Below, in pieces: positions 3,188 through 17,302 of a stretch of 21,537 nucleotides of DNA; within the stretch, counting starts at the first letter, position 1, and each line of letters begins with the position of its first letter. The stretch lies in IMG/VR virus record IMGVR_UViG_3300042905_005931, positions 1 to 21,537 of that record. One strand, written 5' to 3'. The notes below the pieces were generated by a model. The model made no database searches and was not told where the DNA came from. It was given only the letters and a program-made list of their open reading frames with translations. The DNA comes from a virus. The position numbers and the translations under genes were made by a program.

Positions 3188-4113
3188 TGCCAAGACTTTC
3201 ACCACAAGAGTTATATGATAATTATCGCAAAGGTTTTAGTGGATGTTTGTGGGAGCAGCACATATTTGATGAATTAATGCAAAATAGCAAATATCCATTA
3301 TTTGGAGCTGCTAGCAAAAAAATTAAGAGTAGTGGTAAGGGCAAATTATCAACCCCATATAAGAGTGTGTTAAAGTTTGACAAAAGTCCTTATAATGAAA
3401 GACAAACTACTGGAGATTGTGTGAGTCATGGAACACGAAATGCTTGTGATGTTAGTCGAGCAGTAGAAATAGATGTTCATGGACAAAAAGAAGCTTGGAT
3501 AGCAAGAGGAGCAACAGAAGCTATTTATGGTGCTCGTGGTCATGGTGGAGAAGGAATGAGTTGCTCTAGGGCTGCTGAGTTTGTTAGTAAGAATGGTGGC
3601 ATACTACTAAGACAAAATTATAAGGGAGTAGCCGACTTTACTAAATATAATGGTAATCTAGGAGCCGGTTGGGGAGGAAGAGGATTACCAGATAAGGTTA
3701 TTGATGCAGCTAATGACCATCAAATTAAAACAACCAGTTTAATAAAAACAGTAGAAGAAGCAAGAGACGCTTTAGCTAATGGTTATGGCTTAGCAGTATG
3801 TTCTAGTTATGGATTTTCTAATAAAAGAGACAAGAAGGGCATTGCAAATACTAGTGGAAGCTGGGCTCATTGCATGGCTTGGATAGCATGTGACGATACT
3901 GGTAGTGAGCCATTATTCTTAGTTCAAAATAGTTGGGGCAAATGGAATGATGGAGGTCATCCAGAATGGGGGCCTATACCAGACGGTAGTTTTTTAATAC
4001 GAGCCGACGTAGCAGCAGGGATGCTTTCACAAAATGGAAGTTATGCGTTTAGTAATTTTGACGGATTCCCTGTACAAAAGCTACCATCTTACGGTTTCGA
4101 AGACTATCTATAA
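3187..4113 (+). CDS. Papain-like (C1 family) cysteine peptidase
   Basis: A protein of 308 residues with the full C1 catalytic set in order: oxyanion Gln73 and nucleophile Cys78 in RQTTGDCVSHG, His228 in GSWAHCMAW, and Asn248 in LFLVQNSWG. The latter is the standard papain-family Asn-Ser-Trp-Gly motif. There is no signal peptide and no long inhibitory propeptide (about 65 residues precede the active-site region). AAGGAAG at 3174-3180 supports the ATG at 3187. It sits in a cluster of small membrane proteins. Papain-fold enzymes in phages can act in virion maturation, lysis or host takeover; which one applies here cannot be read from the sequence. Fold and catalytic class are well supported, the biological target is unknown. 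Confidence 0.85.
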   Translation: MPRLSPQELYDNYRKGFSGCLWEQHIFDELMQNSKYPLFGAASKKIKSSGKGKLSTPYKSVLKFDKSPYNERQTTGDCVSHGTRNACDVSRAVEIDVHGQKEAWIARGATEAIYGARGHGGEGMSCSRAAEFVSKNGGILLRQNYKGVADFTKYNGNLGAGWGGRGLPDKVIDAANDHQIKTTSLIKTVEEARDALANGYGLAVCSSYGFSNKRDKKGIANTSGSWAHCMAWIACDDTGSEPLFLVQNSWGKWNDGGHPEWGPIPDGSFLIRADVAAGMLSQNGSYAFSNFDGFPVQKLPSYGFEDYL

Positions 4114-4143
4114 TATAGTGGTCTAAAAGCTAACCTTAAGTTT

Positions 4144-4153
4144 GGTGTATTAT
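4144..4153 (+). promoter_or_regulatory. GGTGTATTAT motif before the 4177 gene
   Basis: An exact copy of the recurring 10-mer lies in the 63-base gap between two genes, 23 bases before the next ATG. TATATT (4151-4156, 5 of 6 to a -10 box) overlaps it. No convincing -35 box is visible, so if it is a promoter it is likely an extended -10 type or one needing a phage factor. Confidence 0.45.
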
Positions 4154-4176
4154 ATTTATACCTTTAGGGTTATATT

Positions 4177-4371
4177 ATGAAACTTTTAGATAGAATCGCT
4201 TTAAATAATTTATTACGAATAATAAGAGAACTTATTATACGAATGGTTGACTTTTTTGAAAAGCAAAAAAAAACAGTCAAACCAGTACCAAAACCAAATC
4301 CCAATAGACCTCGCCCTTTGAAAAATATTATAGACCTGATACCTGTTCCATGGAGAACAAAAGATGAATAA
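4177..4371 (+). CDS. Small hypothetical protein, Pro/Lys-rich
   Basis: A 64-residue protein with an amphipathic N-terminal helix (residues 1-29, NNLLRIIRELIIRMVDFF) and a basic, proline-rich middle (residues 31-49). It has no recognised domain. A weak AGGG element lies upstream (4165-4168), and the gene overlaps the next by 8 bases. The amphipathic helix may sit on a membrane, in keeping with the neighbours. Confidence 0.5.
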   Translation: MKLLDRIALNNLLRIIRELIIRMVDFFEKQKKTVKPVPKPNPNRPRPLKNIIDLIPVPWRTKDE

Positions 4372-4711
4372 AATACTATTACCAATTTTAGCAGTTGCTA
4401 TGATATTTGGGTCATATGGATATCATGGGTCAACAACTTCTGCAGTAACTCTTGTGGGTGGTATTGTTAAAGCTCAACATACTGAAAGTGTGAAAAAATA
4501 CAAAAGAAAAGACTGTTTAATATGCAAAGGTAAAGGATACTATATTAGTGGTGACGGTATCGAAAAAGTTAATTGTGGATATTGTATTCCTGATAAGGGT
4601 GAGACTCCAAAAAATCAATCACCAAGTACATATCCAAAAGTTATTGTTCATCCTCCGGTAACTGTTCAACAAAATTGCCCAAATGGCGTTTGTCCAATCC
4701 CTAAAAAATAA
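4364..4711 (+). CDS. Exported or anchored protein with DnaJ-type cysteine motif
   Basis: A 115-residue protein. The N-terminus looks like a signal peptide or anchor (residues 1-20, ILLPILAVAMIF). Residues 51-74 contain CLICKGKGYY followed by CGYC, a CxxCxGxG...CxxC pattern resembling half of a DnaJ-type zinc-binding region (Cys51, Cys54, Cys71, Cys74). A second CPNGVC pair (Cys105, Cys110) lies near the C-terminus after a proline-rich linker. It may bind zinc outside the cytoplasm or form disulphides. GGAG at 4352-4355 supports the start. Function is unknown. Confidence 0.6.
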   Translation: MNKILLPILAVAMIFGSYGYHGSTTSAVTLVGGIVKAQHTESVKKYKRKDCLICKGKGYYISGDGIEKVNCGYCIPDKGETPKNQSPSTYPKVIVHPPVTVQQNCPNGVCPIPKK

Positions 4712-4721
4712 AGGTATAAAA

Positions 4722-5120
4722 ATGGACGATAATCTTAGAGAAAAATTAAAGGCTATAGCAGAAAAAGTATTAAAACAAGCAAACGTACCAAATGATGAAA
4801 AATTTGGTAGTGTTATTGCTATACTGATGATGATTAGTATTATACTAACCGTAATTAGAGTATTACAAGAATGTAATAAAAATAAAACGCAAGGTATGAC
4901 ATCAGAAAATAAACAATCACTCTATGCTGAAAATATTAAATCTTATAGTAAAAAACGAGGTTGGTTTACTAGACTAAGAATAAAAAGAATTCTTAAAAGA
5001 GAACTCACCTCAGAAGAATATAATAAATACGGTATCAAATTAACAGAAGCATTGTTAGATATAGGAGAAACCCTCAAGGATGATGAAGTAGCAACTCTAA
5101 TGGAGGCAGCAAATGTTTAG
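4722..5120 (+). CDS. Single-TM hypothetical protein
   Basis: A 132-residue protein. I chose the ATG at 4722, preceded by AAAGG (4710-4714) just after the upstream stop; an in-frame ATG at 4683 would lengthen it by 13 residues but lies inside the previous gene with no ribosome binding site. It has a short helical N-terminus, one membrane segment (residues about 31-48, VIAILMMISIILTVIRVL) and a basic C-terminal domain (GWFTRLRIKRILKREL). It overlaps the next gene by 8 bases. The family is not recognised. Confidence 0.6.
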   Translation: MDDNLREKLKAIAEKVLKQANVPNDEKFGSVIAILMMISIILTVIRVLQECNKNKTQGMTSENKQSLYAENIKSYSKKRGWFTRLRIKRILKRELTSEEYNKYGIKLTEALLDIGETLKDDEVATLMEAANV

Positions 5121-5364
5121 TATATTAATCTGGTGTGTATATGGTATTTTTGTTGGCGGCATAGCAAAAGCTATAGTCCCAGGGGAAGAAAATTTTGGTT
5201 TTGTAAAAACAGTAGCACTAGGAGTATGTGGCTCCTATATGGGTGGCGCACTATTATACTTACTGGGCAAGTATGAATCGGTGTCTCCTGCTGGATTGTT
5301 CATGGGGGTCGCCGGTGCTGTTTTAGCATTGGTGCTTTATAACAAACTACAACAAAAAACCTAA
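5113..5364 (+). CDS. GlsB/YeaQ/YmgE-family membrane protein
   Basis: An 83-residue, three-helix membrane protein matching the GlsB/YeaQ/YmgE (transglycosylase-associated) family in length and pattern: WCVYGIFVGGIAKAIVPG, then a Gly-rich second helix (LGVCGSYMGGALLYLLG) and a third helix (AGLFMGVAGAVLALVLY). Family members are small stress-related inner-membrane proteins of unclear biochemistry. Strong GGAGG at 5102-5106 supports the start. It ends in an A-rich stretch (CAA AAA ACC TAA) directly where the next reading frame's homology begins in the +1 frame. In a phage it might help lysis or modify the host membrane; this is inference. Confidence 0.75.
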   Translation: MFSILIWCVYGIFVGGIAKAIVPGEENFGFVKTVALGVCGSYMGGALLYLLGKYESVSPAGLFMGVAGAVLALVLYNKLQQKT

Positions 5365-7327
5365 AGTAGCTATAGTCTTATATCTTTACCATATTGACTT
5401 ATGGCCAGAGTTTAAAAATCTATTAATAAACCTAGATATAGACTATACTTTATATATCGGTTTGTGTAAGGACAATAATAATTCTTTCATTGTTGACGAT
5501 TTAAAAAATCTTAATGGCAACAGTGTAAATATAAGTTATCATGATAATTATGGGGCTGATATAGCCCCTTTTCTTTCTCAATTATCTTCCATAACAGAAC
5601 CTTTATTTATCAAACTACATTCCAAAAAAACTAGTTTGCCAAATTATGAATATATAAATTGGCGAGCAGTTCTTTTGCATGATTTTATTGGTGGTACAGA
5701 TATAGTAAAGTCAAATATTTCTATATTTAAAGACAAATCTGTTGGTATGGTATGTAATGGGCCTCTAATGTTAGAAGAATTAGAAGGAACTAATGTAGAG
5801 AATATTAAGCAAGTATGTTCGCTATTGAATATCGACTACGGGTCTGTAAAAAACGGAGCTTTTCCAGCAGGGTCTATGTTCATGTCCAGAACAGATCTCT
5901 TCCAAACAATATTTAATAATCGGCTTGTTAAAAAGATAACTACAAAACTAAAAAATGAGCACGGAAAAGTAAACGATTGGACATCGGGCAAGTACTCTCA
6001 TGCCATAGAGAGGATATTTGGGTATGCAATAAATAATAAAAAATTAAAAATACAATATACTCAATATCCTACTATTCAGATCAAAAACGATTTAGCCACA
6101 AACGGATATCTAAAATTAATAAGAATGTATAATAACGAATGCTATATCCTAGAAGACATACATACTTACGGAAAAATATTAGAAAACAATACCCAAATTG
6201 CAATACAATGGTATAATTTACCAACTAAACCACAAATTTATTCCCATATCACAAATGACACAATTATAAATATAACCTCGTCTTTAGATAACCTAAAAGA
6301 TTTTGATGAAAAGTTTTATATATCAGAATATCCAGATGTAATAACGTATGATCAGTATTCAAAAACGTCTGTTAGGCAAAGGATGCTGGATCATTATATG
6401 AGATATGGTAAAAACGAAGGACGATGTAAAAACCACCCACACCTGTCCAATATTTTAATAGACGAGTCAAATGATATAATTAAAAACATTAAAAATAAAA
6501 ATATATTATGTCCATGTAATAGTTTAGAGTGCATATGTTTGCTTACTACTTCAAAAGAAATACAAAAAAAAACATACGACAAATTTATAAGACATTTATG
6601 TAGCATGACCCAGTTAAGTAAACATGCTAAAAAACTGCATTTTAAAATTATTCTCAATAACGATCAGCACATTCCTAAGATTAACAATTTAAAAAAAATC
6701 TTTAAAACCGTGGAGATTGTTAATTTAAACTTATCTCCAGATGATGATATTTATCTTCCTCGTTTACCTTACAATAAAACTATGCCAGTCCACGGCTTAA
6801 AATCTGGCCCCAACTTATGTTTTTTTAAAACTATTCAGCATTGTGCAAATTATAACACAACACTACTATTAGAAACAGACTGTGTATTAGGAGTCGATTG
6901 GATAGAAAAAATTATGAATTACACACGATATACTAATGGATTTTTAATCTCTGGGGCAGTGTATGATGGTGAATCTGACCATAAAAGCAGCTCTGTTATG
7001 GCTACCCATATTAATGGAGGCACAGGAATTTATGCTACCGGGAACAAAATACTACAATCTCTTATAAAAACCCTAGAAGAACTCATGAAAGAAGAAGTAT
7101 CAAAAGATATGATAGGCTTAGCCTATGATTATGCCCTGAAAGCTATGATAGACAATAATAACGACAGAAAAGAGGTATCTCCACAAATTAAAAAAATATG
7201 GAGATTTATTAAACGAAACTATTTACCAAATAAATTAATTATTAATTGCAGCACCATCAATGACAATCAACTAAGCAAAACGTATCTTAAAAAGATACAT
7301 AATTATGCTATATTACATAAAAAATAA
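5363..7327 (+). CDS. RgpF-like / GT-A two-domain glycosyltransferase, start unresolved
   Basis: A large glycosyltransferase. The N-terminal part matches the rhamnan-synthesis F (RgpF) pattern: PKVAIVLYLYHIDLWPEF, then YGADIAPFL, FIKLHSKKT, INWRAVLL, FPAGSMFMSR and SHAIERIFGY. A spacer motif (DFDEKFYISEYPDV...HYMRYGKNEGR) at about 6295-6423 leads to a second GT-A-like domain with LLLETDCVLGVDWIEKI (around 6865-6915). Conserved sequence begins at 5363, but the frame is open only from 5327 and contains no ATG, GTG or TTG before a TTG at 5462, which would cut off the first strand of the fold. Candidates are an ATA start at 5339, slippage on the A-run at 5354-5359, or a base-call error there. Coordinates given mark where homology starts. 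It probably transfers sugars onto a surface polysaccharide or phage component. Confidence 0.75.
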   Translation, partial: KVAIVLYLYHIDLWPEFKNLLINLDIDYTLYIGLCKDNNNSFIVDDLKNLNGNSVNISYHDNYGADIAPFLSQLSSITEPLFIKLHSKKTSLPNYEYINWRAVLLHDFIGGTDIVKSNISIFKDKSVGMVCNGPLMLEELEGTNVENIKQVCSLLNIDYGSVKNGAFPAGSMFMSRTDLFQTIFNNRLVKKITTKLKNEHGKVNDWTSGKYSHAIERIFGYAINNKKLKIQYTQYPTIQIKNDLATNGYLKLIRMYNNECYILEDIHTYGKILENNTQIAIQWYNLPTKPQIYSHITNDTIINITSSLDNLKDFDEKFYISEYPDVITYDQYSKTSVRQRMLDHYMRYGKNEGRCKNHPHLSNILIDESNDIIKNIKNKNILCPCNSLECICLLTTSKEIQKKTYDKFIRHLCSMTQLSKHAKKLHFKIILNNDQHIPKINNLKKIFKTVEIVNLNLSPDDDIYLPRLPYNKTMPVHGLKSGPNLCFFKTIQHCANYNTTLLLETDCVLGVDWIEKIMNYTRYTNGFLISGAVYDGESDHKSSSVMATHINGGTGIYATGNKILQSLIKTLEELMKEEVSKDMIGLAYDYALKAMIDNNNDRKEVSPQIKKIWRFIKRNYLPNKLIINCSTINDNQLSKTYLKKIHNYAILHKK

Positions 7328-8480
7328 AAACAATATGATACAAAATAATAAAAGTATAAATAATTTTGATGAAAATTTTTACTTAACAAATTATCCTGTA
7401 GTCTCTGAGTACATGGCAGAAATCAATTCTTTGTCTCTAAAAGAAAAATTATATAATCATTATATTAATTATGGTGCAAAATTAGGCTGCTATGCTAATG
7501 AGTATGATGCTGCAAATTTATCTCCAGACTACAAAATAATATCAGATTTAACAATTACAACAGACAATTGTTCAATATTACTGGAGACACCCAAGGCTCA
7601 GTGGCAATATCCCGCAAATACCGAAAAGCACTATTTTAATAACCACAATAATTCATTATTAAAATCAACAGATAATTGGTACATAGGTTTCCCATGGGCA
7701 TCATTAATTAATTCTAATATGTCATTCGATATTAATGTTATACAAGAATTAAAAACTTTTTTATCAAAACTAAATGGAAGAAAACACACAGTATGTCAGC
7801 ATATTTGGTGGAAAAGGTTGGCTTATCTGTGGGAGGCAATAGGACTGACAGACGTTCACCTGTCTCATTATGAAAAAAATATTTATAACACCAATAATTT
7901 AACGTTCCATTCGTGGCCAATAACATCTGCTAATCTAGAAAACTCAGGCAGATCGACTGGTTTGAATTTTAAGTATTATGATAATAAAAAATATTTAGCC
8001 TCTTTTATTGGTTCATATGAAAATTATAATTATAGAAATGACACTCGTTTAAAGTTACAACAAGTATTCTCTAATATTGATAAAATATATTTTAAGCTAT
8101 ATGATGTGGTAAATCGAAATCAAATAAATAAAGAGATACTAGATACAAAAATTATAGATGACTTTGATCAAAAAACTATACAATACAATGAAGTATTGAG
8201 TGATTCCGTTTTCTCTCTGTGTCCAGAAGGATCTGGACCAAATACAATTAGACTATGGGAAAGTATGTCTGTGGGAACTATCCCAGTAATATATTCTGAT
8301 GATTGGATCCCACCCACCCAGTATCAAGCTGCTTTAGAAAAATGCTGTGTCTTTATATCAAGAACAGAAATAGATAAAACAATCAAGATTTTATCGTCAT
8401 ACGATAAGTCTGTAATACAAAATATGCAAATTGATTGTATAAATACCTATAAAGACATTAAAAATATGACTTGTTTTTAA
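7305..8480 (+). CDS. Exostosin/GT47-like glycosyltransferase
   Basis: A protein of 391 residues. Residues 21-62 (NFDENFYLTNYP...HYINYGAKLG) repeat the spacer motif found in the previous gene. The C-terminal catalytic region has the exostosin signature FSLCPEGSGPNTIRLWESM followed by VGTIPVIYSDDWIPP (residues 303-337), where family members bind the sugar nucleotide. The start is uncertain: the ATG at 7305 overlaps the previous gene by 23 bases, and an in-frame ATG at 7335 (MIQNNKS) is equally possible; neither has a Shine-Dalgarno. Donor and acceptor sugars are unknown. Exostosin-like enzymes are uncommon in small phages, and here the gene sits in a six-gene glycosyltransferase island. Confidence 0.78.
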   Translation: MLYYIKNKNNMIQNNKSINNFDENFYLTNYPVVSEYMAEINSLSLKEKLYNHYINYGAKLGCYANEYDAANLSPDYKIISDLTITTDNCSILLETPKAQWQYPANTEKHYFNNHNNSLLKSTDNWYIGFPWASLINSNMSFDINVIQELKTFLSKLNGRKHTVCQHIWWKRLAYLWEAIGLTDVHLSHYEKNIYNTNNLTFHSWPITSANLENSGRSTGLNFKYYDNKKYLASFIGSYENYNYRNDTRLKLQQVFSNIDKIYFKLYDVVNRNQINKEILDTKIIDDFDQKTIQYNEVLSDSVFSLCPEGSGPNTIRLWESMSVGTIPVIYSDDWIPPTQYQAALEKCCVFISRTEIDKTIKILSSYDKSVIQNMQIDCINTYKDIKNMTCF

Positions 8481-8481
8481 T

Positions 8482-9264
8482 ATGATTGATTATTTTATAA
8501 TTGGACACAATTCAGAATGTTTTAATGCTCATAATTTAGAGTCGGCTAAATATTTATTAGTTGGGCCTCAAACTTCTGCAAATACCAAACATATAGACTG
8601 CAAAGCCTTGAAGAATAACTTGGAAGATTATCCCTTCTTATGTTCATATACTGCTTGGTTTGCTATTGCAAAAAATAATTTATTCAATAATCCTTTTGTT
8701 TCTATGATAGAATATGATACTAAAATTAGTAGCAAATTTCATAGTGTTAATTTAGAAATAATTAGCAATCAAAAACAAGATAATAATTTCGTTATAGCAT
8801 ATAGTAAAACATTAACAGATCACTATGTTTTTTATAAAAGTACTCCATGGTTAGAACTAACTCTAAAAAAAATCTACAACATAGACTTGCGAGCATTCGT
8901 AGAAAGCAACAAACAGAAACATCCTTTTTGGCCCACTACAACCAATATTACAGCACCACAAAGCATATTATTAAAGTTCGTTGAATGGTTTGATCCCATA
9001 TCAAAATACATTCGTTCTGAGCCGTTGGGATCTTATGTTCATGAGCGTGCTTTTTTTGTGTTTTGTGTTATTAATAATATCGATATAGTTTATCCAAAAT
9101 ATAATGTTCTTCAACATCAACAGTTATGTTCTCATAATAATAATGATATTTATGGTCAGTTTTTAAAACAAAAAAATACAGACATACTAACAGAAGATAT
9201 GGCATTAGAGTATGATTATTTTTACAAAAAACAATACAATCTGTTAAGAAAGACTAATCAATGA
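8482..9264 (+). CDS. Putative glycosyltransferase, GT-A-like
   Basis: A 260-residue protein starting one base after the previous stop, without a Shine-Dalgarno. A short hydrophobic strand then a DxD-like motif (FVSMIEYDTKISSKF, residues 72-86) suggests a GT-A nucleotide-sugar fold. The C-terminal half has EPLGSYVHERAFFVFC and a His-rich stretch (NVLQHQQLCSHNNN), which may supply the second metal or catalytic ligand, as in several polysaccharide-synthesis enzymes. I cannot assign a CAZy family. The position between two recognised glycosyltransferases supports the call. Confidence 0.5.
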   Translation: MIDYFIIGHNSECFNAHNLESAKYLLVGPQTSANTKHIDCKALKNNLEDYPFLCSYTAWFAIAKNNLFNNPFVSMIEYDTKISSKFHSVNLEIISNQKQDNNFVIAYSKTLTDHYVFYKSTPWLELTLKKIYNIDLRAFVESNKQKHPFWPTTTNITAPQSILLKFVEWFDPISKYIRSEPLGSYVHERAFFVFCVINNIDIVYPKYNVLQHQQLCSHNNNDIYGQFLKQKNTDILTEDMALEYDYFYKKQYNLLRKTNQ

Positions 9265-9983
9265 ATATATATACTTATTATGAAGATGTAAACTTTGAAT
9301 TACAACACAATCTTTTAGAGTTATGGACAACAAGTTGGAAAAGACATGGCTTCGATCCTATCATTCTATCTAGAGAAGATGCCAAAAAATCCCCCTTATA
9401 CAATGAATACTATGATTTTGTTCAAAGCGTTCATGAACTTAGTGTTGGTAAGCAATTGCCAGAAGGCGAATACTGCCTTGCGGCACAGTTAGAAATAGTG
9501 GCTTTTCATACTATATCTGATCCATCATATATTTCTGATTATGATATGATTAACAACGGATTTAAATTAGGAGAAACGGTAGAAGGCCTAGTACACTGGA
9601 GAAATGACGCTTGTTCTTGTTTCGCTTCTGGCGATTGTGATGGTTGGGAAAAATATATTCAATTTTTATTTAATCACAAACAAATCGTCATAGATCACTG
9701 CAAAAAAATAAATTATGAAACAAATAGGATGCATTTTCATGATCAAGATTTTTTAGTTGCAGTAAGAGAATTAGGATTAAAAAATAATATATATAAGATG
9801 TATCGTAACTTAGAAATAGCTGGAGCAGAATATGATCCAGACGGAGAGAATTTATGCAAAATAATACATTTACCACATGATAATATGATACGTATAAAAA
9901 AAACATATCCAGAGTATGCTGACTACTCTCAGGACGAACTAAGAATTCTTTTTGCTAACAAAATTATTAACCGCAAACACTAG
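9261..9983 (+). CDS. Putative GT-A glycosyltransferase (DxD motif)
   Basis: A 240-residue protein overlapping the previous gene by 4 bases (ATGA). The N-terminus MNIYTYYEDV followed by LLELWTTSWKRHGFDPIIL is the start of a Rossmann-like GT-A domain ('w..sW...Gf.P.iL'), and SYISDYDMINNGF (residues 89-101) holds a likely DxD metal/nucleotide-sugar site (Asp93, Asp95). A later HDQDFLV motif may be acceptor-side. The protein is short for a full glycosyltransferase but matches the small capsule-type enzymes. Substrates are unknown. Confidence 0.55.
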   Translation: MNIYTYYEDVNFELQHNLLELWTTSWKRHGFDPIILSREDAKKSPLYNEYYDFVQSVHELSVGKQLPEGEYCLAAQLEIVAFHTISDPSYISDYDMINNGFKLGETVEGLVHWRNDACSCFASGDCDGWEKYIQFLFNHKQIVIDHCKKINYETNRMHFHDQDFLVAVRELGLKNNIYKMYRNLEIAGAEYDPDGENLCKIIHLPHDNMIRIKKTYPEYADYSQDELRILFANKIINRKH

Positions 9984-9993
9984 GTTATTATTA

Positions 9994-10791
9994 ATGTATA
10001 ATAGTCAAAATGGAATATGTGTGATTCACGACTGTGGATTCTTTTCTTGTTTTAGCCAAAGACTTGGACAAATTATAAAATACGCTAACCTAAATAGAGA
10101 ATTCCCACCTTATATTGATAGTTCCAAACAATTTAGTATATTTAAATCAAACAATAGCTTTTTAGATATTTCTTATGAATTTTTAAATATAAATTTGTTG
10201 ATTCCTAAATATACAAATGTTGTTAATTTTACAGATCAGTTTACAGACTATAAAAAACTAAATTTTGATTTATTAAATCCTATCATTACCACATATTTTC
10301 AACCCAGTAAACACGTTGTAAATACTATAAAATATTTTGAAAAACAATATAATCTAAACTATGAAAATACCTGTGCTATTTTTTATAGAGGAAACGATAA
10401 ACATTATGAATGCACCATAGCCAACTATGAGGATTACATCAAACAAGCACTAAAGGTACAATCTGATAATCCAAATATTAACTTTTTTATTCAAACAGAC
10501 GATTCATTATTTATTAAATTTTGTATTGATAATCTTAAAAATATTTTTTATATTAGAGAAATACCAACTATACATGACTCGTCATCTGCTGTTGTATATA
10601 CTTTACCGACAGAACAAAGAATAGAGCATGGAGTAAAATTTCTTGCAGCAACGAATATAGTGGCTAAATGCAAGTTTTTAATTACTCATTCTGGAAATTG
10701 TGGATATTGGGCTTCTTTATATAGGGGCAAATCTGATGGTATAATACAATGTTTTACTGATGAAACTAAACAACCAACGAAATGGATTTAA
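9994..10791 (+). CDS. Fucosyltransferase-like glycosyltransferase
   Basis: A 265-residue protein. I chose the ATG at 9994 (AGG at 9982-9984 upstream) over an in-frame TTG at 9952 inside the previous gene. The layout matches the GDP-fucose fucosyltransferase (Fut8/NodZ/O-FucT) fold: an N-terminal FFSCFSQRLGQII helix-turn resembling the 'g.Gs...rl' start, the central AIFYRGNDK (residues 128-136, equivalent to the HxRRxDK GDP-binding motif), FFIQTDD (164-170), and a C-terminal THSGNCGYWASLYRG (231-245). The 'H' of HxR is replaced by Tyr, so the exact donor is unsure. The next gene is another member of the same broad fold. Confidence 0.6.
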   Translation: MYNSQNGICVIHDCGFFSCFSQRLGQIIKYANLNREFPPYIDSSKQFSIFKSNNSFLDISYEFLNINLLIPKYTNVVNFTDQFTDYKKLNFDLLNPIITTYFQPSKHVVNTIKYFEKQYNLNYENTCAIFYRGNDKHYECTIANYEDYIKQALKVQSDNPNINFFIQTDDSLFIKFCIDNLKNIFYIREIPTIHDSSSAVVYTLPTEQRIEHGVKFLAATNIVAKCKFLITHSGNCGYWASLYRGKSDGIIQCFTDETKQPTKWI

Positions 10792-11588
10792 CAATGAATA
10801 CAGATATTATTATACATTGTAGTGGTGGCTTGGGCAACAGACTAACTACTCTATACTCTACTTATGCCCTAACATTAAAGTACGGATTTAAATTTAAATA
10901 TTTTTGGGATTCTGATTTTGGATATGAATGGAAATTTAATAGTTTATTTGACTATGATTTACCTTTGATTGAAAAAACATCAAATTCTAATATTGTAAGA
11001 AATAAATTATTTAATGAGAGTGATCGTACACATAAAAAATCTGAAATTTTAACTGTTCAAGATTTACACAGTAAAATTTTATGGCTATCTCCTGGCCATC
11101 CAAGGATAGAAAATGATTTAACTTATACTACCAGTAGTTATAAAAATGTTTTTGAACATATATCGATATCTTCTAAATTATTAAATAAAATCAATAATAT
11201 ACATATACCTAAAAATACTATTGGTATACATATCCGTGGTGGAGATATAAAAAATCCTCAGAATCTTGATCCAAATGATAAAAGAAGATATGTTTTTCCA
11301 ACAAATATATTTACTATAATCGATAATAGTAATAATTCTTTTTTTATTAGTTGTGAAGATAGCGAGGATCAGATGCTATTCAAAAATAGATATTCAAATA
11401 ATAAAATTATATATTTAGAAAACTGTACTTATGACCGAATCAGTGAACTTGGACTACAAGATGCTTTCATTAATCTAATATTATTATCAAAGTGCTCGAT
11501 GATTATTGGAAATATGGGAAGTACTTTTTCAGGGGTGGCTAGGATGATAGGAGAGATTGATTTTAAAGATTGTACCAATGAAGGATAA
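10782..11588 (+). CDS. Fucosyltransferase-like protein with IHIRGGD motif
   Basis: A 264- or 268-residue protein; ATG at 10782 overlaps the previous gene by 10 bases and ATG at 10794 (MNTDIIIHCSGG) is an alternative start just past its stop. It opens with the strand and loop IIIHCSGGLGNRL, has IGIHIRGGDI in the middle (residues 143-152 from the 10794 start, the HxRxGD signature of alpha-1,2/1,6 fucosyltransferase folds), and ends with SMIIGNMGSTFSGVARMIG, the usual donor-binding 'iigs..StFS..A' element. The order and spacing of all three are right. It probably uses a GDP-sugar; fucose is inferred from the family. Confidence 0.68.
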   Translation: MDLTMNTDIIIHCSGGLGNRLTTLYSTYALTLKYGFKFKYFWDSDFGYEWKFNSLFDYDLPLIEKTSNSNIVRNKLFNESDRTHKKSEILTVQDLHSKILWLSPGHPRIENDLTYTTSSYKNVFEHISISSKLLNKINNIHIPKNTIGIHIRGGDIKNPQNLDPNDKRRYVFPTNIFTIIDNSNNSFFISCEDSEDQMLFKNRYSNNKIIYLENCTYDRISELGLQDAFINLILLSKCSMIIGNMGSTFSGVARMIGEIDFKDCTNEG

Positions 11589-11595
11589 ATTTCTC

Positions 11596-11624
11596 TTGAC
11601 TCAAGTCTATGTTTCTGGTACTAT
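11596..11624 (+). promoter_or_regulatory. Sigma70-like promoter before dCMP deaminase
   Basis: TTGACT (11596-11601, 5 of 6 to the -35 box), a 17-base spacer and TACTAT (11619-11624, 4 of 6 to the -10 box) with TGG directly upstream as an extended -10. It lies 34 bases before the preferred deaminase ATG at 11659, at the boundary between the glycosyltransferase island and the nucleotide-metabolism genes. Confidence 0.55.
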
Positions 11625-11658
11625 ACAACATACAACCAATCAGCGAATTATTACAATT

Positions 11659-12126
11659 ATGAGACCGTCGTGGACAGATTATTTTTTAGGCTTGGCAAAA
11701 GTTGTTTCTCAACGAAGTCATGATCTGCAAACTCAACACGGGTGCATAATTACAGATAACAATAATCGTATTTTGGGTGTTGGATATAATGGATTTGCTA
11801 GAGGATTAGATGATTCATTATTACCAAATACCAGACCCGAAAAGTATCCGTGGATGATTCATGCTGAAAGAAATGCTTTATCTAATTGTGTGGTTAGGCC
11901 AGATAATGGAATAGCATATGTTACCGGCCAATGCTGTAATGATTGTATTATGGCCTTATGGCAAGAAGGAGTAACCAAGGTTTTTATGGCCGACGATCAT
12001 GGAACAAAATTATTTGATCAAGATGCAAAAAAAAGATTTGATACATTTGTAAATATGAGTGGTATAGAAATTTCTTACATAAAACCAAATCTTTCTTGGC
12101 TCAAGGATTTGAGTGGTGTATTATGA
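11659..12126 (+). CDS. dCMP deaminase
   Basis: A 155-residue zinc-dependent deoxycytidylate deaminase converting dCMP to dUMP for dTTP supply. The family start 'RPSWTDYFLGLAKVVSQRS' is followed by GCIITDNNNRILGVGYNG, the catalytic His-Ala-Glu (His68, Glu70 in MIHAERNAL) and the zinc pair in CCNDC (Cys93, Cys96). Longer in-frame starts at 11557 and 11578 would add 34 or 27 unrelated residues; I prefer 11659 because homology begins there and a promoter lies just upstream. There is no clear Shine-Dalgarno. It ends as ATGA with a tiny downstream ORF and precedes ribonucleotide reductase, a natural pathway partner. Confidence 0.88.
   Translation: MRPSWTDYFLGLAKVVSQRSHDLQTQHGCIITDNNNRILGVGYNGFARGLDDSLLPNTRPEKYPWMIHAERNALSNCVVRPDNGIAYVTGQCCNDCIMALWQEGVTKVFMADDHGTKLFDQDAKKRFDTFVNMSGIEISYIKPNLSWLKDLSGVL
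12115..12124 (+). promoter_or_regulatory. GGTGTATTAT motif at deaminase stop
   Basis: An exact copy of the recurring 10-mer, here within the last codons of the deaminase gene. TTGGCT (12096-12101) lies 17 bases before its TATTAT part, giving a possible promoter for the small ORF and ribonucleotide reductase. Because it overlaps coding sequence it is weaker evidence than the copies in gaps. Confidence 0.35.
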
Positions 12127-12260
12127 GTTTAATAATATATTATATATCGTGCGGTATATATTTTTACCATCAGGTGTTTAATGGTAATTCAGATATCACA
12201 AATTTTTCTTTCCAAACCGCAATCATCATAGGCATAATTGCCATTTTAAATAGGAGATAA
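12123..12260 (+). CDS. Tiny putative membrane protein
   Basis: A 45-residue ORF beginning with an ATGA overlap with the deaminase stop and ending two bases before the reductase ATG. It has two hydrophobic segments (LIIYYISCGIYFY near the start and TAIIIGIIAIL near the end) separated by a polar loop, and a terminal NRR. The tight packing on both sides supports a real gene. Against it, the first third overlaps a terminator-like hairpin (12141-12165), so the stretch could instead be a non-coding leader. No homology can be claimed. Confidence 0.5.
   Translation: MSLIIYYISCGIYFYHQVFNGNSDITNFSFQTAIIIGIIAILNRR
12141..12165 (+). terminator. Terminator-like AT-rich hairpin
   Basis: TATATATC (12141-12148), loop GTGC, GGTATATA (12153-12160) form an 8-bp stem with one G-T wobble, followed directly by five T residues. 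The stem is weak in G+C, so efficiency would be low or partial; it may attenuate transcription between deaminase and ribonucleotide reductase. Confidence 0.4.
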
Positions 12261-12261
12261 T

Positions 12262-14451
12262 ATGTCGGCCCTTCAAGAACTTCAGAATTATACGTTTGTT
12301 AGTAAATATGCTCGTTGGATAGAAGACAAGAATCGCAGAGAAACATGGAAGGAAGCTGTTGATCGTGTAAAAAACATGATGCATACCCAGTATCCGGAAG
12401 TAAAAGAAGATATTGATTGGGCATATGATATGATGTATAAGAAGAAGGTTCTAGGTAGCCAAAGAGCACTCCAATTTGGTGGGGAGCCAATTCTAAAAAG
12501 ACATGCTAAAATATATAATTGCACAAGTTCGTATTGTGACAGACTACGATTCTTCCAAGAGTGTTTTTGGTTGTTGCTTTGCGGCAGCGGCACAGGATTC
12601 AGTGTTCAAAAACATCACGTTGCAAAACTACCAACACTAGAACATGATATTCCAGATAATAATGAAGGTATCAAATACGTAATCGAAGACAGTATTGAAG
12701 GTTGGGCAGATGCTTTAGGTGTTCTTCTTAGCTCATACTTTAGTAAGCCAATCGAAGAATTCAAGATGTACAAAAATACTTATGTTGTTTTTGACTATTC
12801 GAATATTAGACCCAAAGGGTCATCACTAGCCAGCGGAGTTGGTAAGGCCCCAGGATTTGAGCCACTACAAAACGGTCTAGAAAAAATTAGAACCTTACTA
12901 GATCGTTGTATTTCTAATAACCAAAAGAAACTACGACCAATTGACGCTTATGATATTGTTATGCATAGCAGTGATGCTGTATTGAGCGGCGGAGTTAGAC
13001 GTTCTGCTAGTCTTGCTTTATTTAGCCATGATGATGAAGAAATGGCAAAAGCTAAAACAGGCAATTGGTACATTGATAATCCTCAAAGAGCACGAAGTAA
13101 TAATTCCGCATTGTTGTTGAAAGACGATACAACACTTGAGGAATTTCAAACTCTTATGAATAGTGTTAAAGAATTTGGAGAACCTGGATTTATTTGGAGC
13201 GACTCAACAGAAATGACATTCAATCCTTGCGTAGAAGTTGGTATGTGGCCAGTCGATGAAGAGACAGGCAAAAGCGGATGGCAGGGATGCAATCTGTCTA
13301 CTATCAATTGTTCGTCTATTGAAGACGAAGATGATTTTTATGAAAGATGCAAGGCTGCTGCTATTATAGGAACTCTACAAGCAGGATTCACTAAACTAGA
13401 CTATCTTGGAGAGATCACTTGCAGAATCTTTGAAAGAGAGGCCCTACTTGGAGTTTCCTTAACTGGAACAATGGAAAAGCATGATCTTATTCTTTCAGAA
13501 AAGGTTCTTCGTGCTGGAGCTAAAATTGCAGTTGAAACAAATAAAGATCTTTCCAAGAAGATAAAAATTAACCAAGCAGCAAGAGTAACGTGCTTAAAAC
13601 CAGAAGGAACAAGTTCTAGTATGCTTGGAACAAGCTCTGGTATTCATCCGCATCACGCTAAACGCTATATAAGACACGTACAGGCCAATATTTTAGAAGC
13701 ACCGTACCAGCACTTCAAAAAACTAAACCCGCAAGCCTGTGAAAAGTCTAGTTGGTCAGCAAATAATACGGATGAGGTAATTAAGTTTCCAATAGAGGTT
13801 CCAGATGGAGCCAAATTAAAGAACCAATTACCAGCAGTAGAAATGTTATCTATTGTTAAAGATACTCAAAAAAACTGGGTTCAAAGTGGAAAAAATAGAT
13901 CATTATGCACTCAAGAATATCTAAGTCATAATGTTAGTAATACCGTAACTGTGAAACCAGACGAATGGGACGATGTTACTAAATACATCTATGATAACCG
14001 TAAATACTTTGCTGGTATAAGTTTAATTCCACAGAGCGGAGATAAAGATTATACCCAAGCCCCATTCACAACAGTTTATACTAGTCGTGAAATAGTTAAA
14101 GAATATGGAGATGCTGCATTATGGTGCTCTGGACTAATCCAATTAGGCCTGAATGCTTTTAATAATAATCTATGGGCGGCTTGTGATTATGTTAGTATGA
14201 ACCAAGCAAAAGAAAATGATAGTCAAGATAAATTATTATTTATTACTAAAATGAAAAATTTTGCTGGTAAATATTTTGATAGTGACCTTAAGAGATTAAC
14301 ATATTGTATGAAAGATGTTTATAATTGGAAAATCTATTGCGATCTATATAATGGATTTAAAAAAGTAGACTATACACAACTTCTGGAAAATGAAGATAAT
14401 ACTGTGGGGATTGAGGAAATAAGTTGTGCTGGTGGGGCTTGTTTACTATAG
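12262..14451 (+). CDS. Adenosylcobalamin-dependent (class II) ribonucleotide reductase
   Basis: A 729-residue monomeric class II reductase of the Lactobacillus leichmannii RTPR type, which uses vitamin B12 coenzyme to make deoxynucleotides without oxygen or a second radical subunit. Key residues are all present: Cys87 in NCTSS (one of the redox pair), Asn321-Cys323-Glu325 in FNPCVEV (radical Cys flanked by Asn and Glu), Cys343 in WQGCNLST (redox partner of Cys87), and the C-terminal shuttle cysteines 722 and 727 in SCAGGACLL. The length is close to the family standard (about 740). Strong AGGAG at 12252-12256 supports the start. No B12 riboswitch is visible upstream. It follows dCMP deaminase, giving a two-step block for dNTP supply. 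Confidence 0.93.
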   Translation: MSALQELQNYTFVSKYARWIEDKNRRETWKEAVDRVKNMMHTQYPEVKEDIDWAYDMMYKKKVLGSQRALQFGGEPILKRHAKIYNCTSSYCDRLRFFQECFWLLLCGSGTGFSVQKHHVAKLPTLEHDIPDNNEGIKYVIEDSIEGWADALGVLLSSYFSKPIEEFKMYKNTYVVFDYSNIRPKGSSLASGVGKAPGFEPLQNGLEKIRTLLDRCISNNQKKLRPIDAYDIVMHSSDAVLSGGVRRSASLALFSHDDEEMAKAKTGNWYIDNPQRARSNNSALLLKDDTTLEEFQTLMNSVKEFGEPGFIWSDSTEMTFNPCVEVGMWPVDEETGKSGWQGCNLSTINCSSIEDEDDFYERCKAAAIIGTLQAGFTKLDYLGEITCRIFEREALLGVSLTGTMEKHDLILSEKVLRAGAKIAVETNKDLSKKIKINQAARVTCLKPEGTSSSMLGTSSGIHPHHAKRYIRHVQANILEAPYQHFKKLNPQACEKSSWSANNTDEVIKFPIEVPDGAKLKNQLPAVEMLSIVKDTQKNWVQSGKNRSLCTQEYLSHNVSNTVTVKPDEWDDVTKYIYDNRKYFAGISLIPQSGDKDYTQAPFTTVYTSREIVKEYGDAALWCSGLIQLGLNAFNNNLWAACDYVSMNQAKENDSQDKLLFITKMKNFAGKYFDSDLKRLTYCMKDVYNWKIYCDLYNGFKKVDYTQLLENEDNTVGIEEISCAGGACLL

Positions 14452-14478
14452 AACAATATTACTCGTTATTCTTATAAA

Positions 14479-14488
14479 GGTGTATTAT
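14479..14488 (+). promoter_or_regulatory. GGTGTATTAT motif before phoH
   Basis: An exact copy of the recurring 10-mer in the 82-base gap between ribonucleotide reductase and PhoH, 45 bases before the start. No good -35 box is seen. It partly overlaps the left arm of an imperfect inverted repeat (14471-14480 with 14510-14520). Confidence 0.45.
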
Positions 14489-14495
14489 TAAGCAC

Positions 14496-14509
14496 AGTAT
14501 TTTAATACT
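14496..14509. other. Short inverted repeat AGTATT-TT-AATACT
   Basis: A perfect 6-bp palindromic stem with a 2-base centre (or 5 bp with a TTTA loop), nested inside an outer imperfect repeat, CTTATAAAGG (14471-14480) and CCTTATATAAG (14510-14520). It would fall at or near the 5' end of a transcript started at the adjacent motif, so it might be an operator or a 5' stabilising hairpin. It has no T-run, so it is not a typical terminator. Confidence 0.35.
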
Positions 14510-14533
14510 CCTTATATAAGAAAAGGGCACACA

Positions 14534-15265
14534 TTGAGAAAAGCTAATAAAAACTCAAAGAAAAAAGCTAAGGTTATTGATGCGACAAATAGTTTGGAAC
14601 CCAAAGGAGCTGCTTATAGAAATCGATTAAAACCAAGAACCGAAAATCAAAAAGAATACATAAGGACTGTTGCAGAAAATACTATAACGTTTTGTCAGGG
14701 CTTAGCTGGTAGTGGTAAAACACACATCGCTATCGGTATGGCTCTTGAATATCTTTTAGACGAAAAAGTAAAAAAGATTATTATCACAAGACCAATATTA
14801 GAGGCTGGAGAAAAAATGGGATATCTCCCAGGATCAGCAGAAGAAAAATTACATCCTTATCTATTGCCAATACTAGATGAAATTGGACATTTCATAAGTT
14901 CAGCACATTATGCTTCACTAAGACTTAACAACAAAGTTGAAGTTGTACCATTGGGACTCATGAGAGGTCGTAATTTTCATAATGCTTTTATTGTTGCTGA
15001 CGAGTGCCAGAATGCATCGTATGAACAATTAAAAATGTTAATAACAAGAACAGGACAATCTAGTAAAATGGTTTTAACTGGTGACGTTGCTCAGTCTGAC
15101 TTAAGCAGACATTTACAAGGTGGTTTTAGCGATATGATATCAGCCCTTAATGGAGTTGAAGGTATAGGTTATTCTAAATTAGAAGCCTCAGATATTGTAA
15201 GAAATCCAATTATCTCTAAAATCTTATATAGACTTGATGATTATGAGCAGCAAAGCCGAAAATAG
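14534..15265 (+). CDS. phoH: PhoH-family ATPase
   Basis: A 243-residue PhoH-like P-loop ATPase. Walker A is GLAGSGKT (residues 56-63), followed by IIITRPILEAGEKMGYLPG, the characteristic PhoH segment, then Walker B in FIVADECQN (152-160) and LTGDVAQSD (181-189) as sensor region. A basic Lys-rich N-terminus (residues 1-13) precedes the core. Start is TTG at 14534, well placed after AAAAGGG (14521-14527); no ATG is available near by. PhoH is common in phages but its cellular role is unsettled; RNA binding or nucleotide-driven unwinding has been proposed. It overlaps the HNH gene by 23 bases. Confidence 0.9.
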   Translation: MRKANKNSKKKAKVIDATNSLEPKGAAYRNRLKPRTENQKEYIRTVAENTITFCQGLAGSGKTHIAIGMALEYLLDEKVKKIIITRPILEAGEKMGYLPGSAEEKLHPYLLPILDEIGHFISSAHYASLRLNNKVEVVPLGLMRGRNFHNAFIVADECQNASYEQLKMLITRTGQSSKMVLTGDVAQSDLSRHLQGGFSDMISALNGVEGIGYSKLEASDIVRNPIISKILYRLDDYEQQSRK

Positions 15266-15833
15266 TAAATGCTTGTTGTTAAATGCAGACTATGCCCCTC
15301 TAAGAATAATATCTTGGCAGAGGGCTATAGTTTGGTCTATTAGATACGAAGACAACAAAAGTTATGGTATTGAAATATTATCATATTATAAAGATAAATA
15401 TATCCAAGGATCTGCTGGCAAACAATATCCAGTTCCAGCAGTAGCTAAAACTCTTAGATATTTTAATCTCTATAATAGAAAGATTAATTTTTCTAGACAT
15501 AATTTATTTATTAGAGATAATCATACATGCCAATATTGTGGTATGCAATTGTGTTCTACTCAATTAACTTATGATCATATCATTCCCAAATGTCGATTTA
15601 ATGAAAACAAAAGATTATCAACAAATTGGAATAATATAGTAACAGCCTGTAGACCATGTAATCATAAAAAAGGAAACAGGACTCCAAAAGAAGCGGGAAT
15701 GAAATTAATAAATTCGCCAATAGAACCCAATTACTCGTTGGAGTACTTGCCTTGGTTTCAAGAAATCTCTACTATAAGCGATGGACCTTCTTACGAACTA
15801 TGGAAACCCTTTATTGTCAATAAATATGTCTAA
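15243..15833 (+). CDS. HNH endonuclease
   Basis: A 196-residue HNH nuclease. The N-terminal part (CLLLNADYAPLRIISWQRAI, residues 10-29, and VPAVAKTLRYF) matches the bacterial and phage HNH family that begins 'LNad..PL.viSW..Ai'. The nuclease motif has a zinc pair CQYCG (Cys96, Cys99), the catalytic YDHIIPK (Asp111, His112), the Asn of NWNNIVTAC (130-131), and a second zinc pair CRPCN (Cys136, Cys139) with HKKGNRTP. Starts at 15234 (TTG), 15237 and 15243 are all in frame inside phoH and none has a ribosome binding site. Free-standing HNH genes in phages may be homing enzymes or may work in packaging or host DNA cutting. Confidence 0.85.
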   Translation: MSSKAENSKCLLLNADYAPLRIISWQRAIVWSIRYEDNKSYGIEILSYYKDKYIQGSAGKQYPVPAVAKTLRYFNLYNRKINFSRHNLFIRDNHTCQYCGMQLCSTQLTYDHIIPKCRFNENKRLSTNWNNIVTACRPCNHKKGNRTPKEAGMKLINSPIEPNYSLEYLPWFQEISTISDGPSYELWKPFIVNKYV

Positions 15834-16233
15834 TTTTATTTTTAATTCCAAGCCTATCGAAGATATTGAAATGTTTTATTGTCTTAGTGGAAAAGAAGAC
15901 TTTGTAGACAGCGAAGGTAATGCTAGGCTGAATTCATTGGAATCAGAAAATGTGGCTGCCAAATGCAGACAAAACAAAAAGCCAAAAAGCTTTAATAATA
16001 ATCAGTATCAATATAGTTACTATATTAGAACCACTCCAAACTCTACTCTATTTAATCCAATAGAATTATTATCTCCAATTAAAAATAAACGACAATTTGA
16101 TTTTATAGACGGCGTTTGTAAAAACAAATGGATGTTTAAAGAGGTATCAAAAATAACATTTGATAAATATATAAAATTTCTCAATACCAAAAATATATCT
16201 TGGTTAAAGGATGCTGAGAGAGACTTGAAGTAA
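15826..16233 (+). CDS. Hypothetical protein, paralog of the 16922 gene
   Basis: A 135-residue protein (ATG at 15826, overlapping the HNH stop by 8 bases; an in-frame ATG at 15781 lies deeper in the HNH gene). It begins MSNFIFN, has GKEDFVDSEGNAR early on, LFNPIELL in the middle, and ends FLNTKNISWLKDAERDLK. All these elements recur in the same order in the gene at 16922, so the two are diverged copies. No catalytic or metal motif is evident. The function is unknown; the pair brackets an FmdB zinc-ribbon gene and another unknown gene. Confidence 0.6.
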   Translation: MSNFIFNSKPIEDIEMFYCLSGKEDFVDSEGNARLNSLESENVAAKCRQNKKPKSFNNNQYQYSYYIRTTPNSTLFNPIELLSPIKNKRQFDFIDGVCKNKWMFKEVSKITFDKYIKFLNTKNISWLKDAERDLK

Positions 16234-16234
16234 T

Positions 16235-16585
16235 ATGCCAACTTACTCGTATGCGTGTGACAAATGCTCAAATCATTTTGAGTTATTTTATTATATTAAA
16301 GACTATATCGATAATCCAAAATGCGCCAAGTGCGGATCAAGCCGAACATACAGAGAATATATAAAAGACGTATCTACACAAAGTTCTTCTGTTAGAAAGT
16401 CTGATACTGAATTAAAAACTATTGGTGATTTAGCTAATAGAAACAGAGACAAAATGACGGATGATCAAAAAATAGAACTTTATAATAAGCATAATGCATA
16501 TAAAGAGGAACAGCCCAAAACGGAACTTCCCAAAGGCATGAAAAGACTCAAAAAACAACCAAAAATTAAATGGACAGACAAATGA
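16235..16585 (+). CDS. FmdB-family zinc ribbon protein
   Basis: A 116-residue protein whose first 40 residues are a classic FmdB-type zinc ribbon: MPTYSYACDKCSNHFEL (Cys8, Cys11) and PKCAKCGS (Cys30, Cys33). The rest is charged and helical, ending in a basic tail, KGMKRLKKQPKIKWTDK. FmdB proteins are proposed regulators, and the basic tail suggests nucleic acid binding. The gene starts one base after the previous stop and ends as ATGA with the next gene. Confidence 0.8.
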   Translation: MPTYSYACDKCSNHFELFYYIKDYIDNPKCAKCGSSRTYREYIKDVSTQSSSVRKSDTELKTIGDLANRNRDKMTDDQKIELYNKHNAYKEEQPKTELPKGMKRLKKQPKIKWTDK

Positions 16586-16929
16586 CCGACAAGCCAGAAA
16601 TAAACGAACAAGATAAACAAAAAATACTAGACGCTATAGAAGCACTAAGAAAACAACATGATAGTGCCTCTTTGGCTCATAATATATCAATGTCATCAGA
16701 CAAGCTGATTGAGTGTAAGCATGAAATAGTGATTCAGGTAGTGGCAAAAATTCTTGAAGAAGATAATCTAGGCACGACCATAGGGGCCAAAGAGATATGT
16801 CAAAAGAATTATCACATACCTGTTCCTGCTAACAGAGACTATAATGAATATACAAAGGGATTCTTTGAATTTCTAGAAAACTGTATGTCAACATCTATAA
16901 ATAATTTAGAAGAGGATAATAATGGATAA
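16582..16929 (+). CDS. Hypothetical protein
   Basis: A 115-residue acidic protein; I chose the ATG at 16582, which overlaps the FmdB stop as ATGA (an in-frame ATG at 16570 is possible). The N-terminal half is helical (KQKILDAIEALRKQHDSASLAHNI), the second half includes AKEICQKNYHIPVPANRDYNEYTKGFFEFLE. The family is not recognised. It ends 8 bases into the second paralog. Confidence 0.55.
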   Translation: MTDKPEINEQDKQKILDAIEALRKQHDSASLAHNISMSSDKLIECKHEIVIQVVAKILEEDNLGTTIGAKEICQKNYHIPVPANRDYNEYTKGFFEFLENCMSTSINNLEEDNNG

Positions 16930-17302
16930 TTTTATATTTAATCCAACTGAAAAAACCCAGGATTCTATGTCTTTCGAATACTACGGAGTATCTGGTGCAG
17001 AAGATTACTTGGATGCTGATGGTATGCCGAGAATGGCACAAGATAGTCCTAAGGTTTTTGCTAAAAAAATAATACGATCAAACACCACAACACAGTACTG
17101 CATTAAGCTTTCAAATAATAATAAACTATTTAATCCTATGGACTATGGTTTAGACGAAAGATCATACAGTATAGTAGACAATGTATGTAGGCCGTCTGAT
17201 AAATTTAAAATAGTAAATCAAGCCGTTTTCAATATGTATATTAATTTTTTAAGTTCCAAGAACGCTTCTTGGTTAACAAAAGCCGAAAGAGAGTTAATCT
17301 AA
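16922..17302 (+). CDS. Hypothetical protein, paralog of the 15826 gene
   Basis: A 126-residue protein starting MDNFIFN, with GAEDYLDADGMPR, LFNPMDYG and a C-terminus FLSSKNASWLTKAERELI. These line up with the elements of the 15826 gene, about 680 bases away between stop codons in the same orientation. GAGGAT at 16912-16917 supports the start. It shares its last base with the ATG of the next gene (TAATG). The C-terminal 'fL..kn.sWL..AEReL' block is the most conserved part and may be an interaction motif. The function is unknown. Confidence 0.6.
   Translation: MDNFIFNPTEKTQDSMSFEYYGVSGAEDYLDADGMPRMAQDSPKVFAKKIIRSNTTTQYCIKLSNNNKLFNPMDYGLDERSYSIVDNVCRPSDKFKIVNQAVFNMYINFLSSKNASWLTKAERELI

Follow-up and report, generated by a model that had tools for sequence, protein, structure and literature searches.

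Why would a phage carry six consecutive glycosyltransferase (GT) genes? The question is posed by the 21,537-base virus record IMGVR_UViG_3300042905_005931 (the window, meaning the whole stretch of DNA analyzed), in which positions 5366-11588 are filled by six consecutive plus-strand open frames of 653, 391, 260, 240, 265, and 264 amino acids, with junctions of -23 to +10 bases between them. A preliminary description of this DNA had recognized a six-gene GT island here, and this stands: all six frames are on the same strand, and each has GT support, of differing strength. The window is contained in a longer record, G001 (IMGVR_UViG_3300042343_001663), at 100% identity throughout, the sole difference being an 18-base in-frame insertion in the second gene after position 8104; its phage is known only from these 64,770 bases. 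Comparison with relatives gives one part of the answer: the island is one allele at a fixed hotspot of interchangeable gene sets, ranging from 0 to 26 genes. As for what the allele does, we give about an even chance to its being a glycan synthesis allele, whose soluble GTs glycosylate virion proteins in the cytoplasm.

A fixed site with exchangeable contents

Relatives were found with the GT family PF11397 as bait, giving 67 loci in IMG/VR; nine relatives share the class II ribonucleotide reductase (RNR) of the window's right flank (12262-14451, plus strand) at 80-89% identity. The left border of the island is a gene for a small membrane protein of the Transglycosylase-associated family (5113-5364, plus strand; PF04226, 1.4e-7), supported by synteny and at 66-79% in relatives where measured; the right border is a dCMP deaminase gene (11659-12126, plus strand; PF00383, 2.1e-15), likewise syntenic and 72-85% conserved. 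Between these same two borders lie no genes in G019 and G026, two in G005, four in G021, six in the window, eight in G010, nine in G012, ten in G024, and 26 in G050. In G019, 3 bases separate the border genes; at the empty site of G026 the deaminase is also absent. The left-border gene was masked in G005 and G021 by an opposite-strand frame in the automatic choice of open reading frames; its sequence was confirmed in G005, and in G021 only the preceding gene matched. Beyond both borders the genes are conserved and colinear.

Cassette genes common to different alleles are mostly 25-49% identical and differ in order and fusions; G012 and G050, with RgpF-like genes at 78% identity, are the sole clearly closer case. 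The hotspot of G050 spans 21.7 kb and includes NeuB- and PseF/NeuA-like genes, and a Pfam tally of 50 cassette proteins returned methyltransferases, epimerases, NeuB, RmlC, CTP-transferase, GT47, GT61, GT64, GT4, GT2, and pyruvyltransferase. We read the hotspot as a boundary between operons, where an insertion would cost the phage little.

The relatives include large genomes. G050 has 243,821 bases with overlapping ends, from which it is probably a complete genome; G019 has 232,683 and G051 has 381,443. By the criterion of a genome above 200 kb this may be a jumbo phage lineage, the window's own phage being seen as 64,770 bases only. Nor is the island the lineage's sole investment in sugars: it is one of at least three glycan clusters in G001. 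A minus-strand cluster (9665-16184 of that record) encodes a PF11397 N-acetylglucosamine (GlcNAc) transferase (238 bits), an HtrL/YibB protein, an epimerase whose nearest NCBIfam model is GDP-L-fucose synthase, below the curated cutoff (251 vs. 500 bits), and a distant paralogue of the fifth island gene; a plus-strand cluster (17602-21979) has GT2, Caps_synth-like, and methyltransferase genes, and there are two GT4 genes in addition. G050 carries GMD-like, GDP-fucose-synthase-like, and GlmS genes outside the hotspot, and GT2 genes were present in all 10 large records tested.

A few other features of these genomes may be recorded here. In G010 (L165, reverse complement 12322-14974) and G005 (L166, reverse complement 14072-16710), the deaminase is followed directly not by a class II RNR but by two genes that by appearance, not by profile, look like a two-subunit RNR. 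Amid the replication genes of the window is a pair of small paralogous proteins (15829-16233 and 16922-17302, 37% identity), both also found in most relatives examined. One locus (L007, 2826-3950) has a phage-encoded gene of the IMP dehydrogenase/GMP reductase family (220 bits), conserved in relatives.

The six enzymes

The enzyme classes first proposed for the island proved essentially right: GT47 by Pfam, a GT-A and a FUT8/NodZ-like enzyme by fold, and the rest through homologues and motifs. Gene 1 (5366-7327, plus strand, as are all six) is a fusion, its two halves being separate genes in relatives: an RgpF-like N-terminal half, a linker with FYxxxYPDV/HYxxxG motifs, and a C-terminal half for which, as for gene 4, we infer a GT-A-like domain. 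The protein itself has no match to PF05045 (RgpF), and the N-terminal half is assigned as RgpF-like through homologues of 33% identity in G012 and G050, which match at 2.5e-9 and 5e-9. Gene 2 (7305-8480, alternative start 7335) shares the linker domain at its N-terminus and is exostosin-like: its C-terminal GT-B half (residues 205-365) matches PF03016 at 4.6e-17 and 62.7 bits (curated cutoff 33.4), making it the only island gene above a curated Pfam cutoff by itself.

Gene 3 (8482-9264) has a conserved EYD motif and homologues at 45-53%. Its AlphaFold2 model, made with four homologues (predicted template-modeling score 0.85), has a predicted fold matching solved GT-A enzymes: the top Foldseek match in the PDB is the bifunctional GT WbbM (TM 0.56), further neighbors are hyaluronan synthases, B3GalT5, and SpsA, and those among viral structures include GTs from phages and giant viruses. 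Gene 4 (9261-9983) has no family match and no structure match, its support consisting of the DYD of a conserved ISDYD motif and phage homologues (44-48% in G002 and G024).

The last two genes resemble fucosyltransferases. Gene 5, with its start refined to the ATG at 9994 (9994-10791; listed from a TTG at 9952), has a FYRGND motif and a 49% homologue in G039. Nearly all of its structural matches with E below 0.001 are to FUT8, NodZ, and AtFUT1, at TM 0.34-0.45 and from a model with a predicted local distance difference test score of 62.7, so that the predicted fold may be called closest to FUT8/NodZ fucosyltransferases, on a model that is only fair. The folds predicted for genes 3 and 5 are in keeping with a glycan-synthesis cassette. 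Gene 6 (start refined to the ATG at 10794; 10794-11588, alternative start 10782) has an HIRGGD motif and is placed near the O-FucT/GT11 superfamily through homologues: it aligns with the part of L140, a large homologue with several domains, that matches O-FucT (PF10250, 2.8e-4, below the curated cutoff), and is 25-27% identical to phage genes annotated as protein O-fucosyltransferase.

Other searches added little. Searching PDB sequences with the profiles of genes 4, 5, and 6 gave nothing informative; a glucosidase match of gene 6 spans 50 residues and was discarded. PHROGs matches of the six genes were weak and unnamed; megablast of the window against phages and tblastn of genes 1 and 4 gave no matches.

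Starts, translation signals, and origin

Gene 1 raises a question of its own: where does it start? Its open stretch runs from the border gene's stop codon, and the first ATG, GTG, or TTG in it is a TTG at 5462. Five other homologues start with ATG; G005 (L166, reverse complement 11060-11130) is also without one and shares the junction 9-mer TAAAGTAGC after the Transglycosylase-associated gene (window 5339-5462). Possibilities include re-initiation at a near-cognate codon, a frameshift fusion to the membrane protein, and loss of the start. A programmed +1 frameshift as the common cause was rejected, no slippery site being shared with G005. Inside the gene is a terminator-like hairpin, GGGGCTGATATAGCCCC-TTTTCTTTCT (5552-5568), which may be due to chance, the scan having given no clear excess over shuffled sequence.

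The weakness of Shine-Dalgarno sequences in the island, already remarked on in the preliminary description, is confirmed: median duplex energy is -5.5 kcal/mol before, -1.2 inside, and -3.9 after the island (the downstream group includes a few hand-set starts that are wrong by one or two bases, an error whose only effect could be to blur it), and the island is weaker when set against 51 core genes from its own phage (p = 0.004). The minus-strand glycan cluster of G001 is also weak relative to the core (p = 0.016). Weak Shine-Dalgarno sequences are not a general cassette mark: the 26-gene cassette of G050 shows no difference from core (p = 0.80). Overlaps like that at 9261 would allow coupled translation.

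Does this point to a separate origin, as had been proposed? Synteny supports it, with two empty and six differently filled sites among the relatives; codon use and, given G050, the Shine-Dalgarno sequences do not. GC is lower (0.27-0.32), accompanying an amino-acid content rich in Phe, Tyr, Met, Ile, Asn, and Lys, but synonymous codon use and GC at third codon positions are like those of the flanks. Foreign origin on grounds of codon use was therefore rejected; an acquired island would have had a similar source or would since have ameliorated.

A promoter scan within the island gave no clear excess over shuffled sequence. Just 5' of the deaminase, a promoter-like TTGACT-17-TACTAT (11596-11624, plus strand) scores 9/12 in the window, not above shuffles; of the other filled alleles, six were tested and five have a good sigma-70-type promoter in the same place (12/12 in G010, 11/12 in G012, 10/12 each in G021, G005, and G050). 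G026 has a terminator-like hairpin 3' of the membrane gene.

What is glycosylated?

Two kinds of observation bear on the acceptor. One is the lack of membrane proteins. In five phages, 55 cassette proteins were examined by a hydropathy count, a simple measure that does pick up two segments in the border protein; not one of the 55 is predicted to contain a membrane segment, and nowhere in G050 or G001 does a protein reach four. The cassettes and these two records are therefore without flippase, polymerase, ligase, or exporter. The same 0 of 55 argues against a gtrABC-type serotype conversion system, to whose components none of the six genes has a Pfam match.

The other is the company kept by the most conserved GT of the lineage, which is a member of PF11397, a family whose characterized eukaryotic members transfer GlcNAc to polypeptides. 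The PF11397 gene has Thr/Pro/Ser-rich mucin-like tracts no more than about 10 kb away in 27 of the 67 loci; none was found in four control phage stretches (199 kb). The tracts start within about 3 kb upstream and on the same strand in L042-L046, L048, L049, L056, and L067, and a Thr/Pro-rich protein is encoded directly upstream in L043 (8990-9952), L045 (8539-9963), and L048 (8980-9951). In G001 (L006) the first gene, of 2372 amino acids, has two mucin-like tracts (3823-4062 and 5194-5343). A very long Thr/Pro-rich, mucin-like phage protein is also seen in L061 (4759-9387).

Taken together, the missing membrane segments, the PF11397 enzyme, and the mucin-like tracts favor cytoplasmic modification of virion proteins over a secreted polysaccharide. 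In what we infer of acceptor, order of steps, donor sugars, benefit, and host, the cassette would sit at its operon-boundary hotspot in large phages, probably of Planctomycetota, and its soluble GTs would act in the host cytoplasm during infection, extending glycans on virion proteins. Nucleotide sugars would come from the host and from phage enzymes such as that of the GDP-fucose-synthase-like gene in G001. The conserved PF11397-type polypeptide GlcNAc-transferase would start the chain, with Thr/Pro-rich, mucin-like tail proteins as its substrates; extension would fall to the RgpF, GT47, and GT-A enzymes and capping to the two fucosyltransferase-like ones. A swapped cassette would then mean a changed sugar coat.

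Several points weigh against this. The nearest mucin-like gene in G001 (3823-5343) is about 34 kb from the island and outside it; the mucin-like loci share ancestry, so that 27 of 67 is no statistical test, and the control stretches are few. PF11397 is broad, and is not known to act on proteins outside its eukaryotic members. The glycan, its acceptor, and a glycosylated virion are predictions from genes, the host could supply flippases and polymerases for a surface glycan, and part of the cassette could be decaying, gene 1 being without a normal start codon.

The probable host

Families that are hallmarks of planctomycetes occur among the relatives: DUF1559 in G002, G021, G022, G024, and G026, and in none of 14 control genomes; DUF1549/PSCyt2 in G002 and G010; DUF1501 and PSCyt1 in G002. 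In that record they lie at 17803-19095 of L012 (DUF1501), 3-1445 of L013 (PSCyt1/PSCyt2), and 9379-10341 of L011 (a pseudopilin-like DUF1559). A subtilase of G050 begins ...VESLENRKLL, which we take to resemble the planctomycete LEPR-XLL motif; NCBIfam gave no match to that motif. A genome scan returned one Saprospiraceae-binned and one Verrucomicrobiales-binned contig and was set aside; these may be phage contigs in bins, so the assignment rests on the hallmark genes. Since G001 itself has none of the four families DUF1559, DUF1549/PSCyt2, DUF1501, and PSCyt1, its host is judged from relatives, and is probably a member of the Planctomycetota.

Alternative explanations

Sugar loci in phages could serve other ends. 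The enzymes might remodel the host surface (lipopolysaccharide, S-layer glycoprotein, or exopolysaccharide) against superinfection or to hide infected cells, using host carriers and exporters. Cassette exchange and cassette content (NeuB, RmlB/C-like, pyruvyltransferase, GT4) do recall O-antigen loci, and cyanophage islands have been so interpreted in the literature (PMC9602691). Neither the cassettes nor the 243.8 kb of G050 encode a membrane flippase, polymerase, ligase, or exporter, which speaks against surface remodeling, as does the fact that no temperate or serotype-conversion genes were recognized; the conserved polypeptide-type GlcNAc-transferase, too, indicates protein acceptors. Surface remodeling is possible and, on this evidence, somewhat unlikely. 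A different suggestion, that the cassette is a decaying island or gene reservoir, with glycan genes captured at a permissive site and mostly turned over without fixed function, would account for two relatives with an empty site, a gene 1 without a standard start codon, and weak ribosome-binding sites. It sits poorly with six long intact frames whose catalytic motifs are conserved against homologues at 44-53%, and with the GT genes that empty-site relatives keep elsewhere; we think it improbable.

Hypermodification of DNA, with sugars placed on phage bases against restriction, has precedent in well-known phage GTs acting on DNA and in reports of diverse DNA glycans (Pyle 2024, cited in PMC12619734). 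The number of enzymes is far too large for this, however, and the content is one of nucleotide-sugar and surface-sugar genes. Thymidylate-synthase-type hydroxymethylase (PF00303) is absent from G001, G002, G019, G050, and G051, all but possibly G050 being fragments, while the control was positive in 9 of 14 genomes; TET/JBP oxygenase (PF12851) had no match anywhere, the controls being silent as well. The earlier suggestion of a glycan beyond DNA base glucosylation is in keeping with these results, and hypermodification is very improbable. Cytoplasmic glycosylation of virion proteins remains our preferred reading. A fuller version is more tentative, and may well be wrong: that Planctomycetota jumbo phages have a mucin-like virion coat, with Thr/Pro-rich tail proteins O-glycosylated in the bacterial cytoplasm by phage enzymes and outer sugars switched in serotype-like fashion as entire cassettes of 0-26 genes are swapped at a single fixed site.

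Known systems and implications

Sugar islands in phages are already known, and this one is not a new kind of thing. Cyanophage S-SCSM1 has an island (ORF113-135) reported to encode GMD, GDP-fucose synthase, protein O-fucosyltransferase, alpha-1,2-fucosyltransferase, NodZ, and five further GTs (PMC9602691), and in S-SKS1 about 14.5 kb of annotated sequence includes genes for nucleotide-sugar epimerases and one for a fucosyltransferase. Both are like the window's phage in having a sugar island; they differ in being T4-like cyanobacterial phages, and the available parts of their descriptions mention neither empty and filled alleles nor mucin-like partners. Similarity of their proteins to the window is 26-29% and limited to parts of genes 2 and 6. 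In moraphages, a group of jumbo phages from aquatic Bacteroidota, the widely shared genes include four putative GT orthogroups, and virion glycosylation has been suggested for them (PMC12619734); their predicted hosts are different, and swap cassettes are not described in the portion available.

That phage GTs can act on virions has been shown in mycobacteriophages, where capsid and tail tube are the proteins they glycosylate (Freeman 2023, cited in PMC12619734). The evidence there is experimental, whereas the window's lineage, with its many GTs and nucleotide-sugar genes, is known from genes alone. Mycobacteriophage virion glycosylation reportedly involves far fewer GT genes. Chlorovirus PBCV-1 decorates its major capsid protein with its own cytoplasmic GTs and GDP-fucose synthesis, without the host endoplasmic reticulum or Golgi; it differs from the window's phage in being a eukaryotic large DNA virus with other GT families. 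As far as the literature searched shows, what is new is a swap site of fixed position whose alleles run from empty to very large, the mucin-like proteins that accompany PF11397, and the probable planctomycete host.

The lineage is a handle on phages of Planctomycetota, for whose glycosyltransferases a literature search gave no paper, and a source of many unclassified GTs; its empty and filled sites make a clean natural comparison. If the acceptor is on the virion, mucin-type glycoproteins would be produced in a bacterial cytoplasm at the direction of a virus, and large aquatic phages would change the glycans that coat them by exchanging cassettes, much as bacteria vary their O-antigens.

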